A stretch of DNA of 64,000 nucleotides from Thalassospira australica (GTDB lineage: Bacteria; Pseudomonadota; Alphaproteobacteria; Rhodospirillales; Thalassospiraceae): NCBI RefSeq assembly GCF_000763295.1, contig NZ_JRJE01000030.1, forward strand, positions 1-64,000. Reading direction: 5' to 3'. Every line of letters begins with the position of its first letter. Position 1 is the stretch's first letter. Shown in pieces: positions 12,590 to 16,293 of this stretch. The translations under genes were made by a program, and so were the position numbers. The notes under the pieces were generated by a model, which did not search any database, was not told where the DNA came from, and was given only the letters and a program-made list of their open reading frames with translations.

Positions 12590-13324
12590 ATGTCAAAAGA
12601 ACCTTTTAGTTTCTCGGCTGCTCTTTCGCGAATTTCGCGTCCAGATGATCCTTCTGATGACGCGGTTCTCGAAGTTGACGAACATATGGAGCTGGAGGGC
12701 GTTTCCGACAACGCATTGGTCCCCAAAAGGGTGCGTGACCCTGATGCGACCCGGCAAAAGCTTCTTGATGCCGCCTTTGGTGAAATTCGGCGTGCCGGGT
12801 TTGGCGGTGCATCAATTAACAACATCCTGGAGAACAGCGGTTCCACCAAGGGGGCGCTGTATCATCACTTTTCCGGGAAGGCCAAACTGGTCAATGCGGT
12901 GATTGAGGAATGCCTGCCGGGCTATGTTGATGAAGTTTGGCTTAATGACCTTGAAGATGCCGATGATATCTTGCCCGTCCTGATGGAACAGGTCGACCGC
13001 CTTGGCGGTGAGAATGCGCCAAGCCTGCTTGAAGGCGGCTGTCCGCTTGCCCGTCTTGCGTCGGGTGCGGGGGAACTTGATGAAAACCTGCGCAAACGCA
13101 TTGATGGTGTGTATCGCTACTGGCGCCGCGGATTGGCGTCCCACATCGGCAAGGCGCAATTTAACAAAACCGTGCGCACGGATGTCGAACCATCCGCTGT
13201 TGCCGAATTTATTATTGCCGCCTTGCACGGGTTCCTTACGCGCCCGCCCGCCTTGCGCAATCTGGAAACCCAGGATTCATTTGCCCGCGAGTTTGCGCGA
13301 TATCTGAATAACCTGCGCCCTTAA
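12590..13324 (+). CDS. TetR/AcrR-family transcriptional regulator
   Basis: A 244-residue protein. After a polar N-terminal extension of about 45 residues comes a TetR helix-turn-helix (ATRQKLLDAAF through GALYHHFSGKAKLVNAVIEE, about 45-95). The C-terminal ligand domain contains the GCPLARLASG stretch seen in LmrA/YxaF-like TetR proteins. It is transcribed divergently from nadK-argE across 249 bp; its targets are not evident. No clear ribosome-binding site precedes the ATG. Confidence 0.85.
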   Translation: MSKEPFSFSAALSRISRPDDPSDDAVLEVDEHMELEGVSDNALVPKRVRDPDATRQKLLDAAFGEIRRAGFGGASINNILENSGSTKGALYHHFSGKAKLVNAVIEECLPGYVDEVWLNDLEDADDILPVLMEQVDRLGGENAPSLLEGGCPLARLASGAGELDENLRKRIDGVYRYWRRGLASHIGKAQFNKTVRTDVEPSAVAEFIIAALHGFLTRPPALRNLETQDSFAREFARYLNNLRP

Positions 13325-13486: not shown

Positions 13487-14410
13487 ATGCGTTCTCTTGT
13501 ACTTTCTGCTGTTGCAGCAGTCGCATTCACCTTCGCAGGTGGCGTCGCACAGGCCGAGCGCCTGACAGAAAAGCCGTTGGTAGATGCCAACTGGGTCGAG
13601 GAAAACCTTGATAACCCGTCGCTGGTAGTTGTCGACATTCGTTCGCTGACCAAAGATGGCAGCCCCTATGAGGCGGGTCACATTCCCGGTGCGGTTTATG
13701 CCCCCTATGGCAAGTTTGGCTGGCGGGCAAAGGTCGACAATGTTGTTGGCATGCTGCCGCCGGTTGATGTGATCTCCAAACGGATCGGGTCGCTTGGTAT
13801 CGACAATGACAAGCAGGTCGTTGTTGTCCCGGCAGGCCAAAACAGTTCGGACTTCGGGTCGGCAACCCGTGTGTATTGGACCTTCAAGGTTCTTGGCCAT
13901 GATGCGGTCACAATTCTCGATGGCGGTCAACGCGCATGGAATGCTGCGGGCAAGTCTGTTTCCCAGGATGCTGTTGCACCAACCACGGTGGCCTTTAACG
14001 CGAACTTCCGCCCTGAGCTGGTGGCCTCGGCAGAAGATGTTGCCAAGGCGCGTGAAAATGGTGTCGAGCTGATTGATGCCCGTCCGGAATCGCAGTTCAC
14101 TGGCAAGGCAAAAAGCGGTGTTGTAGCCCGCCCGGGTGCCATCCCGGGGGCAAAAAACATCTCCCAGTCTGAATTTTACAACGATCAGGACGGTGCCTTT
14201 GTCGCCTCTGACGTGATTGAAACGCTTGTTGCTGATGCAGGTGTATCAACGGACGCCAAGGAAATCACCTATTGCAACACCGGTCACTGGGCGTCGGTTG
14301 CCTGGTTTGGTCTGTCCGAAGTGATGGGCAACAAGAACACCGCGATGTATGATGGCTCCATGACCGAATGGGCTGCTGATCCGAACCGTGAAATGGTTAT
14401 TCCTGAATAA
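13487..14410 (+). CDS. Exported two-domain rhodanese sulfurtransferase
   Basis: A 307-residue protein with a signal peptide (MRSLVLSAVAAVAFTFAGGVAQA) followed by two rhodanese domains. The first has no active-site Cys (the loop is VVVPAGQNSSD); the second has the catalytic cysteine in EITYCNTGHWAS. It should move sulfane sulfur from thiosulfate or a persulfide in the periplasm. The start at 13487 follows GGAG with nine bases of spacing; the ATG at 13469 overlaps that site and is rejected. It is followed by a YeeE/YedE transporter and a cysteine-repeat protein, which together suggest a sulfur-handling operon. Confidence 0.88.
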   Translation: MRSLVLSAVAAVAFTFAGGVAQAERLTEKPLVDANWVEENLDNPSLVVVDIRSLTKDGSPYEAGHIPGAVYAPYGKFGWRAKVDNVVGMLPPVDVISKRIGSLGIDNDKQVVVVPAGQNSSDFGSATRVYWTFKVLGHDAVTILDGGQRAWNAAGKSVSQDAVAPTTVAFNANFRPELVASAEDVAKARENGVELIDARPESQFTGKAKSGVVARPGAIPGAKNISQSEFYNDQDGAFVASDVIETLVADAGVSTDAKEITYCNTGHWASVAWFGLSEVMGNKNTAMYDGSMTEWAADPNREMVIPE

Positions 14411-14449
14411 TCGGGTTTCCTGACGGTATCTTGTCAGTCAGAACAGTTT

Positions 14450-14480
14450 GAACGGAACCGGCTCACGACCGGTTCCGTTC
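14450..14480 (+). other. Intra-operon hairpin between rhodanese and YeeE genes
   Basis: GAACGGAACCGG and CCGGTTCCGTTC form a perfect 12-bp stem with a seven-base loop, 38 bases before the next start. There is no uninterrupted T run, so it is more likely an attenuator or mRNA stabiliser than a full terminator. Confidence 0.5.
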
Positions 14481-14518
14481 GCGTTTCCGCAATTGATTTC
14501 AGGTTACAGAGCGTCACC

Positions 14519-15730
14519 ATGTCTGAAACGACCCTAAAAGCACGCCCGGAAAGCCCGGGTTTTAATTTCGACAAAGGGCCAGCAGCGATTACTGCCGTCC
14601 TGTTTGTTGTTGTCGGCATCGCCATTTCACAAGCTGTTGACCTTAAACAGGCCGTTCTTTACGGGCTGGGCGGGGTGCTTGGCATTGCGCTGTATCATGC
14701 TTCGTTCGGTTTTACCGGCGGCTGGCGGCGTTTTTCGGTTGAGAAGCGCGGGCGGGCCCTGCGTGCACAGCTTTTGATGATCGGCGTTGCGGCTGCGGCA
14801 TTCATTCCGATACTGGCCCTTGGCAATCCGTTGGGTGGGGCGGTTGCCGGTGCGATTGCACCGGTTGGCATGTCGGTTCTGATCGGTGCTTTTTTGTTTG
14901 GTCTTGGCATGCAGCTTGGTGGGGGCTGTGGCTCTGGCACGTTGTTCACCGTTGGGGGTGGTAGTGCGCGGATGCTGTTGACGCTGGTGTTCTTTATCAT
15001 CGGTGCAGTAATCGGTACGGCGCATTTGCCCATGTGGCTTGAACTGCCAAGCCTGCCGCCAATGAGCCTTGGACGTGAATTTGGCATCAGTGGCGGTCTT
15101 GTCGTGACCTTTGGCGGGTTGGCGTTGGTGGCGTTGCTGACAATATTCGTCGAAAAGCGTGCTCATGGCGGGCTTGAAGTTGTCTCAAGCGCGCCGCGTG
15201 CAGGGATCGCACGATTTATCCACGGCCCATGGCCGCTGGTTTGGACAGGCTTGCTGTTGGCGGGCTTGAACATCGCGACGCTTTTGATCGCGGGACATCC
15301 GTGGTCAATTACGTTTGGCTTTGGCCTTTGGGGCGCAAAGATCGCGCAAGTGATCGGTATCCCGGTTGAAACGTGGGAATTCTGGAACTGGGGTGGTCCG
15401 GCATATGCGCTGGGCAACTCGGTTTTGCAGGATAATACCTCTGTTATGAATTTCGGCATCGTCATTGGTGCAGCCTTTGCCGCCGCCCTTGCGGGCAAAT
15501 TTGCGCCAAAGGTATCCGTGCCGGTTGCGTCCCTATTGGCCGCAGCGATTGGCGGGTTGCTTATGGGCTATGGCGCGCGATTGGCATTTGGATGCAACAT
15601 CGGCGCGTTCTTTAGCGGCATCGCATCAGGCAGTGTGCATGGCTGGTTGTGGTTTGCCCTGGCCTTTGCAGGCAGTTGGGTTGGCATTGCCCTGCGTCCG
15701 ATCTTTGGAATGGATGGTTTCCGGAAATGA
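14519..15730 (+). CDS. YeeE/YedE-family thiosulfate/sulfur transporter
   Basis: A 403-residue multi-spanning membrane protein. Two repeated halves each carry the conserved cysteine motif of the family: GGGCGSGTLFTVGGGS in the first and FGCNIGAFFSGIASG in the second. Characterised YeeE proteins take up thiosulfate through such cysteine relays. The gene lies between an exported rhodanese and a cysteine-repeat protein; its TGA overlaps the next ATG by four bases, implying coupled translation. The exact substrate (thiosulfate or another sulfur species) is not shown by sequence. Confidence 0.9.
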   Translation: MSETTLKARPESPGFNFDKGPAAITAVLFVVVGIAISQAVDLKQAVLYGLGGVLGIALYHASFGFTGGWRRFSVEKRGRALRAQLLMIGVAAAAFIPILALGNPLGGAVAGAIAPVGMSVLIGAFLFGLGMQLGGGCGSGTLFTVGGGSARMLLTLVFFIIGAVIGTAHLPMWLELPSLPPMSLGREFGISGGLVVTFGGLALVALLTIFVEKRAHGGLEVVSSAPRAGIARFIHGPWPLVWTGLLLAGLNIATLLIAGHPWSITFGFGLWGAKIAQVIGIPVETWEFWNWGGPAYALGNSVLQDNTSVMNFGIVIGAAFAAALAGKFAPKVSVPVASLLAAAIGGLLMGYGARLAFGCNIGAFFSGIASGSVHGWLWFALAFAGSWVGIALRPIFGMDGFRK

Positions 15731-16293
15731 GTGAGAAAAATACAATCCTGTTTGGGGCGGTCTTTTTGGCAGCGAGCGGCGCGGTGGCGCTGGACCATTA
15801 CAGCCATACGGCAAACATCCCCGCGATTGCCAACCCGGCACCGGCCAAGCAGCCCGCCGCAGGCAGCAATCCTTGTGCTGCCAATCCATGTGCAGCGAAT
15901 CTCTGCGCGGCGACCCCCTGCGCAGCGAACCCATGTGCAGCGAATCCATGTGCAGCGAATCCATGTGGCGCAGCGAATCCTTGTGCGGCGGTGTCATCCA
16001 ATCCATGTGGCGCGGGTTACAACCCCTGCGCCGCGGCGAATCCCTGCGCGGCCGTGTCGGGGAATCCTTGTGGGGCCAACCCGTGTGGTGCCGGATACAA
16101 TCCGTGCAGTGCAGGAAATCCTTGTGCGGCAAATCCATGTGCAGCAGCCCCGATGAGCAGTAATCCTTGTGCTGCGTATAACCCCTGCGCGGGGGCATCG
16201 CCGTGTGGCGCGTCACCCTGTGCACCGGCGGCAAGCAACCCTTGTGCGGCCTATAATCCGTGTGCGGCGGCCAATCCCTGTGCTGCATATTGA
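15727..16293 (+). CDS. Cysteine-repeat (NPCAA) protein in sulfur operon
   Basis: The 188-residue protein starts at an ATG overlapping the previous stop (ATGA). Residues 7-22 form a hydrophobic segment (signal anchor or signal peptide), then an Ala/Pro linker, then from residue 49 to the end tandem degenerate repeats of the type NPCAA, giving 23 cysteines at mostly five- to eight-residue spacing and almost no charged residues. I do not recognise a named family. Possible roles are metal binding, a persulfide or polysulfide carrier, or a disulfide-linked scaffold; its coupling to a rhodanese and a YeeE transporter favours sulfur chemistry. A longer frame from 15649 exists but runs inside yeeE. 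Confidence 0.82.
   Translation: MSEKNTILFGAVFLAASGAVALDHYSHTANIPAIANPAPAKQPAAGSNPCAANPCAANLCAATPCAANPCAANPCAANPCGAANPCAAVSSNPCGAGYNPCAAANPCAAVSGNPCGANPCGAGYNPCSAGNPCAANPCAAAPMSSNPCAAYNPCAGASPCGASPCAPAASNPCAAYNPCAAANPCAAY
15862..16290 (+). repeat. Degenerate tandem repeat encoding NPCAA
   Basis: Repeats of about 15-24 bp (core AATCCATGTGCAGCG and variants) encode the cysteine repeats. The best-conserved run is around 15920-15970, where three near-identical 15-bp units follow each other; variation elsewhere is largely synonymous or in the linker codons. Confidence 0.85.

Follow-up and report, generated by a model that had tools for sequence, protein, structure and literature searches.

A rhodanese-YeeE gene cassette with a cysteine-comb tail protein in Thalassospira australica and its association with DUF6969

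The stretch of DNA analyzed here, positions 1 to 64,000 of contig NZ_JRJE01000030.1 of Thalassospira australica (GCF_000763295.1; hereafter the window), contains a tandem of three genes encoding a predicted exported rhodanese, a YeeE-family sulfur transporter, and a small protein carrying a comb of 23 cysteines. This gene set recurs across the genus, relatives of the third protein follow rhodanese-YeeE pairs in other bacteria, and the longer combs are associated with genes of the family DUF6969. A functional tie of this tail protein to sulfur import is well supported. Tentatively, and at somewhat less than even chances, we read the three proteins as one envelope sulfur-import cassette, in which the tail protein would act as a carrier arm and the comb as an amplified sulfur buffer.

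The cassette in the window and in the genus Thalassospira

The rhodanese gene (13487..14410, plus strand, 307 residues) encodes a protein with a hydrophobic N-terminus, as judged by eye, and two PF00581 stretches (family match 1.3e-26). Sulfurtransferases were matched in the PDB, and the sole cysteine, situated in the motif CNTGHWAS of the second domain, aligns with the cysteine of 3aax (PDB search, best 5.8e-39). The protein is a rhodanese with a predicted catalytic cysteine. The adjacent yeeE gene (14519..15730, plus strand, 403 residues) matches PF04143 with 242.6 bits (cut-off 27; 9.6e-72), and its motifs GGCGSG and GCNIG align to Cys91 and Cys293 of TsuA (6leo, 2.3e-12; numbering as given in the available part of PMC11582611). 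The transporter contains two cysteines, which are conserved in 103 (C137) and 101 (C359) of 105 aligned relatives. TsuA-specific models scored the window YeeE below their cut-offs.

The third gene (15727..16293, plus strand, 188 residues) starts within the stop codon of yeeE in an ATGA overlap (15727..15730). Its product begins with a putative anchor, conserved in related proteins, that consists of hydrophobic residues 7-21 followed by Asp23-His24 (15727..15798), and continues into a repeat region of NPCAA-type units with a cysteine spacing of 5 or 6 (residues 48-188; 15868..16290). Except for one, all 23 cysteines are preceded by proline (xPC), and the repeat region is devoid of Asp, Glu, Lys, Arg, and His. 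The tandem, its translational coupling, the cysteine count, the near-zero charge, and the hydrophobic N-terminus had been described in a sequence-only reading of this DNA, which also labelled the first two products as an exported rhodanese and a YeeE/YedE-type transporter; the present analysis confirmed all of these points.

Due to its cysteine density (23 in 140 residues, compared to at most 11 in any of the other 120 stop-to-stop frames of at least 140 residues in the window), a chance origin of the comb is very unlikely. The four proline codons are used six times each in the window repeats, which suggests that more than a copied DNA unit is maintained. Among 22 orthologs, the variable sites of the N-terminal codons 2-30 number 7, 7, and 28 at codon positions 1, 2, and 3, respectively. 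Since the repeat frame is retained in the genus and variation falls mainly on third positions, gene 3 is, on sequence grounds, a genuine coding gene, and a frame artefact or chance frame was ruled out by conservation and codon statistics. A 220-residue open frame running antisense across the repeat (15626-16288, minus strand) is probably a by-product of the repeat composition. Gene 3 has no family match in Pfam and NCBIfam, and the comb sequence no match in the PDB. The unit ANPCA resembles the pentapeptide-repeat motif A(N/D)LXX; a pentapeptide-repeat beta-helix was set aside, as the cysteine spacing alternates between 5 and 6.

The transporter was found in all 28 further genus members searched, and the same genes are present in named Thalassospira records. 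In each of the 29 genus loci a same-strand rhodanese gene is located upstream of yeeE, and yeeE and gene 3 share the ATGA overlap. A comb with an intact repeat frame follows yeeE in all 28 loci with enough downstream DNA, the window included; the 29th (L003) ends at a contig edge 24 codons into gene 3 and was left out of this count. The combs contain 14-31 cysteines, with asparagine two residues before the cysteine in 512 of 630 cases and a spacing of 5 or 6 in 503 of 602 intervals. By sequence comparison, the repeat number drifts and the Pro-Cys motif is kept. The low complexity, the lack of charge, and lengths of 125-233 residues within one genus might point to no more than an envelope spacer that is flexible or cross-linked by disulfides. 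We consider this very unlikely, because 622 of the 630 cysteines stay in xPC while the length drifts, and because other lineages keep a single terminal cysteine motif in place of a spacer.

Tail proteins at rhodanese-YeeE loci of other bacteria

In a sample of 289 alphaproteobacterial genomes, the transporter type occurs in 34. A rhodanese gene is located directly upstream of yeeE in 10 of these, and in 9 of the 10 a cysteine-tail peptide is encoded directly downstream (loci judged by reading). For the other 24 genomes, no tail peptide was seen directly after yeeE within our filter for downstream open reading frames (ORFs), which required at least 4 cysteines or a DH within the N-terminal 35 residues and which short peptides at rhodanese-free YeeE loci can escape. 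The tails differ widely in their cysteine content: seven cysteines in L262 (G274; MKDRNTLLFGSVFVLATAAIAADH...), four SPCA in L269 (G074), eight xPC in L299 (G305), one PCG in L311 (G156), CAPCGAPC in both L321 (G271) and L325 (G316), and a single cysteine, in GAHC, in L322 (G115) as well as in L080, a Rhodobacteraceae record outside the 289 genomes. A comb is encoded one gene beyond the yeeE neighbour in G323 and G226 and just upstream in G153.

A phylum sample of 398 genomes yielded 41 with the transporter; loci were taken from 30 (4 of them Thalassospira), so that 26 non-Thalassospira loci were read. Three of these have a rhodanese gene upstream, and all three encode a peptide of 64-66 residues with CAPCGAPC near its end. 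In G618, yeeE is followed by a tail gene (SPC, SPC, NPC, NPC), a DUF6969 gene, and a rhodanese gene, in that order; neither rhodanese nor peptide is present at 22 of the 26. In the gammaproteobacteria, a search with one such tail peptide as query matched 5 of 274 genomes, and all five peptide genes are situated directly after yeeE with a rhodanese gene before it. A search of plasmids with the CAPCGAPC peptide gave no match.

Gene order is also retained in the Rhizobiaceae. On pSymB of Sinorhizobium meliloti (loci L365 and L370), including the laboratory strain 1021, a rhodanese gene, yeeE, a 124-residue ORF, and a DUF6969 gene follow each other. The ORF (MTTRNTLLFGAALAAATAAVAVDHH...) starts inside the yeeE stop codon and encodes the comb anchor and four cysteines, all four in xPC. 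The PLSDB gene table of CP050561.1 lists a sulfurtransferase, YeeE, and a hypothetical protein that corresponds to the DUF6969 gene, and omits the 124-residue ORF; PLSDB gene tables are incomplete, and other annotations may contain it. The four-gene order is shared by Neorhizobium sp. EC2-8 and Ciceribacter thiooxidans, whose tails have 7 and 11 cysteines, respectively. The rhodanese of the pSymB cassette is likely SMb21549 (thtR), a putative exported rhodanese whose gene was up 29.3-fold in a tolC mutant according to the part of PMC2912261 available to us.

In 16 peptides compared, a hydrophobic stretch is followed by Asp at residues 19-30 (DH in 13, DY in 1, DL in 2), and all cysteines lie after this Asp; G271 and G156 are exceptions, each with one cysteine within the hydrophobic stretch. 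On this one anchor plan the cysteines are graded from one, over CAPCGAPC, to long combs with up to 31. As far as sequences can tell, the tail gene is older than the comb form. Relatives in other alpha- and gammaproteobacteria, including the Rhizobiaceae, rule out an oddity confined to Thalassospira. A co-occurrence of repeat gene and yeeE in other genomes, which the sequence-only reading had put forward as its check, was thus observed in all testable genus members and, in the form of these relatives, at rhodanese-YeeE pairs elsewhere. Tails with 1 to about 30 cysteines on a common anchor, tied to the rhodanese-YeeE pair, fit a sulfur-carrier arm.

DUF6969 and the wider NPC-repeat family

NPC-repeat genes outside the cassette adjoin a gene of the family PF22308 (DUF6969). 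Among the 289 alphaproteobacterial genomes, DUF6969 is present in 62 and a comb-like match in 27, with both in 25 (Fisher p 5e-17, a value which, like the following ones, treats genomes as independent and ignores relatedness). Of the 34 genomes with the YeeE type, 23 have DUF6969 (p 5e-10) and 14 a comb match (p 5e-8). All three associations persist without Thalassospira. The comb search, with the window protein as query, is driven by composition and misses short tails, and 2 of its 27 matches (G132, G185) look spurious. Around DUF6969, 32 comb ORFs were counted within 4 kb (532 kb) versus 3 farther out (405 kb). By a strict rule, which leaves out some long fused proteins, 26 of 66 DUF6969 regions hold a comb ORF within 4 kb.

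DUF6969 is present in all 29 Thalassospira genomes; in the window genome the gene (G000:C9:153346-153963) is located on a different contig from the cassette. It adjoins there the gene of a second NPC-comb protein (L218:10093-10407 on G000:C9; 105 residues, 13 cysteines, signal-like N-terminus) and an FGE-sulfatase-like gene. Wherever the third gene encodes at least four xPC, DUF6969 was found in every genome checked, frequently directly behind that gene (the genus, G074, G274, G305, G618, and the three Rhizobiaceae). By comparison, it is absent from eight of the nine genomes in which the tail is short (at most two xPC) and no further comb was seen (G156, G271, G316, G516, G654, G904, G949, and G1011); the exception is G744, with DUF6969 on another contig. 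Both single-cysteine cases, L080 and G115, have DUF6969 plus a separate comb gene.

Invariant among 57 aligned DUF6969 sequences are P58, H74, H76, G88, H89, F90, H91, H123, F139, N142, and R196. No signal peptide is apparent by eye, no predictor having been run. The AlphaFold2 model is confident (pLDDT, the predicted local distance difference test, 96.2), and neither structure comparison with the PDB (Foldseek best E 0.6; VIA-align best Z 3.2) nor a profile search gave a convincing match. No paper on DUF6969 was found among open-licence PubMed Central (PMC) papers. The natural inference is a metal-binding enzyme or carrier.

The comb might accordingly be a substrate of DUF6969, which would install a group on Pro-Cys in the manner of ribosomally synthesized and post-translationally modified peptides, the modified comb then binding metal or sulfur outside. 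The five invariant histidines, the confident model of a fold without a convincing relative, and the co-occurrence and proximity of DUF6969 and combs, including its absence from most short-tail genomes, argue for this proposal. Against it, 40 of the 66 DUF6969 regions lack a comb within 4 kb under the strict rule, 20 of 35 genomes with NPC-repeat proteins among the pattern matches listed (see below) have no DUF6969, and DUF6969 is not known to act on a substrate or to catalyse a reaction. Moreover, MNIO enzymes (PF05114) are not near the cassettes: they occur in 6 of 9 genomes tested and never within 40 kb, so that maturation of the comb by MNIO is not supported. Taken together, we consider a DUF6969 substrate unlikely.

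NPC repeats extend well beyond YeeE loci. GTDB contigs were scanned for runs of three NPC units at a five-residue spacing, and what follows holds among the matches listed; off-frame matches (e.g., L034, L035, and L037) were removed by eye, 15 such genomes serving as controls, and the 35 true ones were likewise chosen by eye. The NPC-repeat proteins have exported-type N-termini, and several are fused to other domains, namely to SoxA/TsdA cytochrome c (L046, L140, and L143 above the Pfam cut-off, L052 below) and to a cytochrome P460-type domain (L217 and L249 above, L223, L229, and L078 below). DUF6969 occurs in 15 of the 35 genomes versus 0 of the 15 controls; with only 15 carriers, it was rejected as an obligatory partner of every NPC protein.

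In L217, L223, L229, and L249 the P460-type domain lies behind long NPC combs near DUF6969. In L046, L075, and L095 (Mariprofundaceae, Ghiorsea) and in L059 and L063 (Deltaproteobacteria), NPC repeats are joined to a cytochrome c domain, next to a multiheme cytochrome-like gene in case of L059, L063, and L095; no DUF6969 was found in any of the five genomes. Two cyanobacterial proteins (L058, L091) combine NPC/DPC repeats with a YHS-like sequence, as judged by eye. In L140, L143, L229, and L238, yeeE and the comb gene are separated by a small gene whose product looks exported; it has no Pfam match, and an invariant CPLNTT and other residues suggest, by eye only, a cupredoxin-like protein.

Within 4 kb of DUF6969 (79 loci, of which 14 had been found via NPC repeats), the most frequent neighbours are a P460-like and comb-cytochrome cluster (31, partly linked through the repeats), a protein of about 390 residues of no assigned family (13), FGE-sulfatase-like genes (13), a small cytochrome c (11), and TRAP-transporter-like genes (10, 8, and 6), followed by YeeE (7), cupredoxin-like (5), and YHS (4) genes. 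The FGE-sulfatase-like, cupredoxin-like, and YHS genes and the dense, uncharged cysteine repeats would suit a periplasmic buffer of copper, zinc, or iron, with rhodanese and YeeE providing or safeguarding the thiols and with a cargo other than sulfur; copper-binding bufferins likewise occur as fusions with FGE-sulfatase and cytochrome c domains, as stated in the accessible portion of PMC12452194. However, the closest genetic ties of the anchored subfamily are to rhodanese and YeeE, the cysteine spacing of 5-6 differs from CxC and CxxC metal motifs, and the one-cysteine forms (L080, G115) would buffer metal poorly. A metal buffer is therefore rather improbable in our view. The main argument for both metal binding and DUF6969 modification is the wide NPC-repeat family beyond YeeE.

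A broader alternative is that xPC combs and DUF6969 form an undescribed system, in which a His-rich cytosolic enzyme installs a group on Pro-Cys and the combs act as exported carriers of sulfur (or metal), plugged by lineage into the YeeE importer or into SoxA/TsdA-like or P460 cytochromes. We regard this as doubtful; if DUF6969 does modify the repeats, the system might be categorically new.

Proposed sulfur-carrier arm and comparison with known systems

Under the preferred reading as a sulfur-carrier arm, the exported rhodanese would take sulfane sulfur from periplasmic thiosulfate or persulfide and load it onto the cysteines of the tail. The tail, fixed to the outer side of the membrane, would hand this sulfur to YeeE, whose two-cysteine path (C137, C359) would pass it on to cytosolic carriers of the TusA type. 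The Thalassospira comb would be an amplified version of this arm with the added role of a sulfur buffer, and DUF6969, probably cytosolic and metal-dependent, may mature or protect the repeated xPC cysteines before export. We count in favour of this reading the gene order common to all 29 genus loci, the co-occurrence of rhodanese and peptide in alphaproteobacteria, gammaproteobacteria, and Rhizobiaceae, the SoxA/TsdA-type domain on some NPC-repeat proteins, and the two TusA genes of the window genome.

Several observations weigh against it. The pair C137/C359 is identical in YeeE proteins with and without a rhodanese neighbour, so that nothing in YeeE marks a tail partner. G111, the only one of the ten alphaproteobacterial rhodanese-YeeE genomes that lacks a tail gene immediately behind yeeE, has its comb genes elsewhere. 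Outside the 289 genomes, G038 has no tail gene following yeeE, its rhodanese-YeeE pair being oriented divergently to a comb gene and DUF6969, and in G054 the rhodanese gene is one gene off and no tail was seen. NPC repeats also occur without YeeE nearby, in P460 and YHS settings, and this YeeE type is missing from 39 of the 62 genomes with DUF6969. Finally, it is from gene context that we infer the chemistry of a carrier arm, including persulfide formation and the direction of transfer.

The sequence-only reading had proposed that the comb holds persulfide sulfur or a metal at the membrane; this interpretation is partly supported, and the finding is broader than it, with DUF6969 as a partner and short-tail relatives added. 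No account of how YeeE-type transporters are fed from the periplasm was found in the literature consulted, and a conserved, outward-facing cysteine tail next to a rhodanese outside the cytosol would be an obvious candidate for the donor. The cassette also offers a starting point for understanding DUF6969 and the scattered NPC-repeat proteins. Searches of open-licence PMC literature for NPC-repeat and CAPCGAPC strings retrieved no related paper, and the cassette was not described among the papers listed for YeeE or rhodanese combined with Thalassospira, S. meliloti, or P460.

A TetR-family regulator gene (12590..13324, plus strand; PF00440, 3.2e-10) lies upstream of the rhodanese gene and is a candidate for control of the cassette. 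A TetR-like gene is also situated upstream of the cassette in the Thalassospira loci L062 and L068 and may regulate it. At the cassette locus, no RNA elements scored above Rfam cut-offs, and promoter and terminator scans scored the same as shuffled sequence.

In the Sox system, a cysteine near the end of a flexible periplasmic arm of SoxY carries sulfur between enzymes. The tail protein may resemble SoxY by analogy of its proposed function only; unlike SoxY, it is predicted to be anchored, lacks a folded carrier domain, and can contain numerous cysteines. The window YeeE belongs to PF04143 like TsuA/YeeE and SoxT and has cysteines at TsuA positions 91 and 293. However, its subfamily conserves two cysteines, compared to the three shared by TsuA and SoxT according to the available part of PMC11582611, and since the third is absent with or without a rhodanese neighbour, its loss is not specific to tail-associated transporters. 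In contrast to TsuA/YeeE-YeeD, where the described YeeE partner in thiosulfate uptake is the TusA-type protein YeeD (PMC11073785, as far as its accessible text goes), the operon encodes an exported rhodanese and an outward cysteine tail.

Similar to bufferins and other MNIO-modified peptides (PMC12452194, in the part at hand), the NPC-repeat proteins include exported cysteine-rich peptides with a linked enzyme, for which DUF6969 is the candidate, and cytochrome c and FGE fusions; the partner of the comb is DUF6969 instead of MNIO. The NPC-repeat cytochromes of the SoxA/TsdA and P460 types, for which no published name was found, share the NPC[AG]A repeats and the exported-type N-terminus and are often encoded beside DUF6969, whereas the window comb is devoid of a heme motif and a folded domain. 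Transporter and rhodanese are thus of known kinds, and the tail protein together with DUF6969 is the new part.

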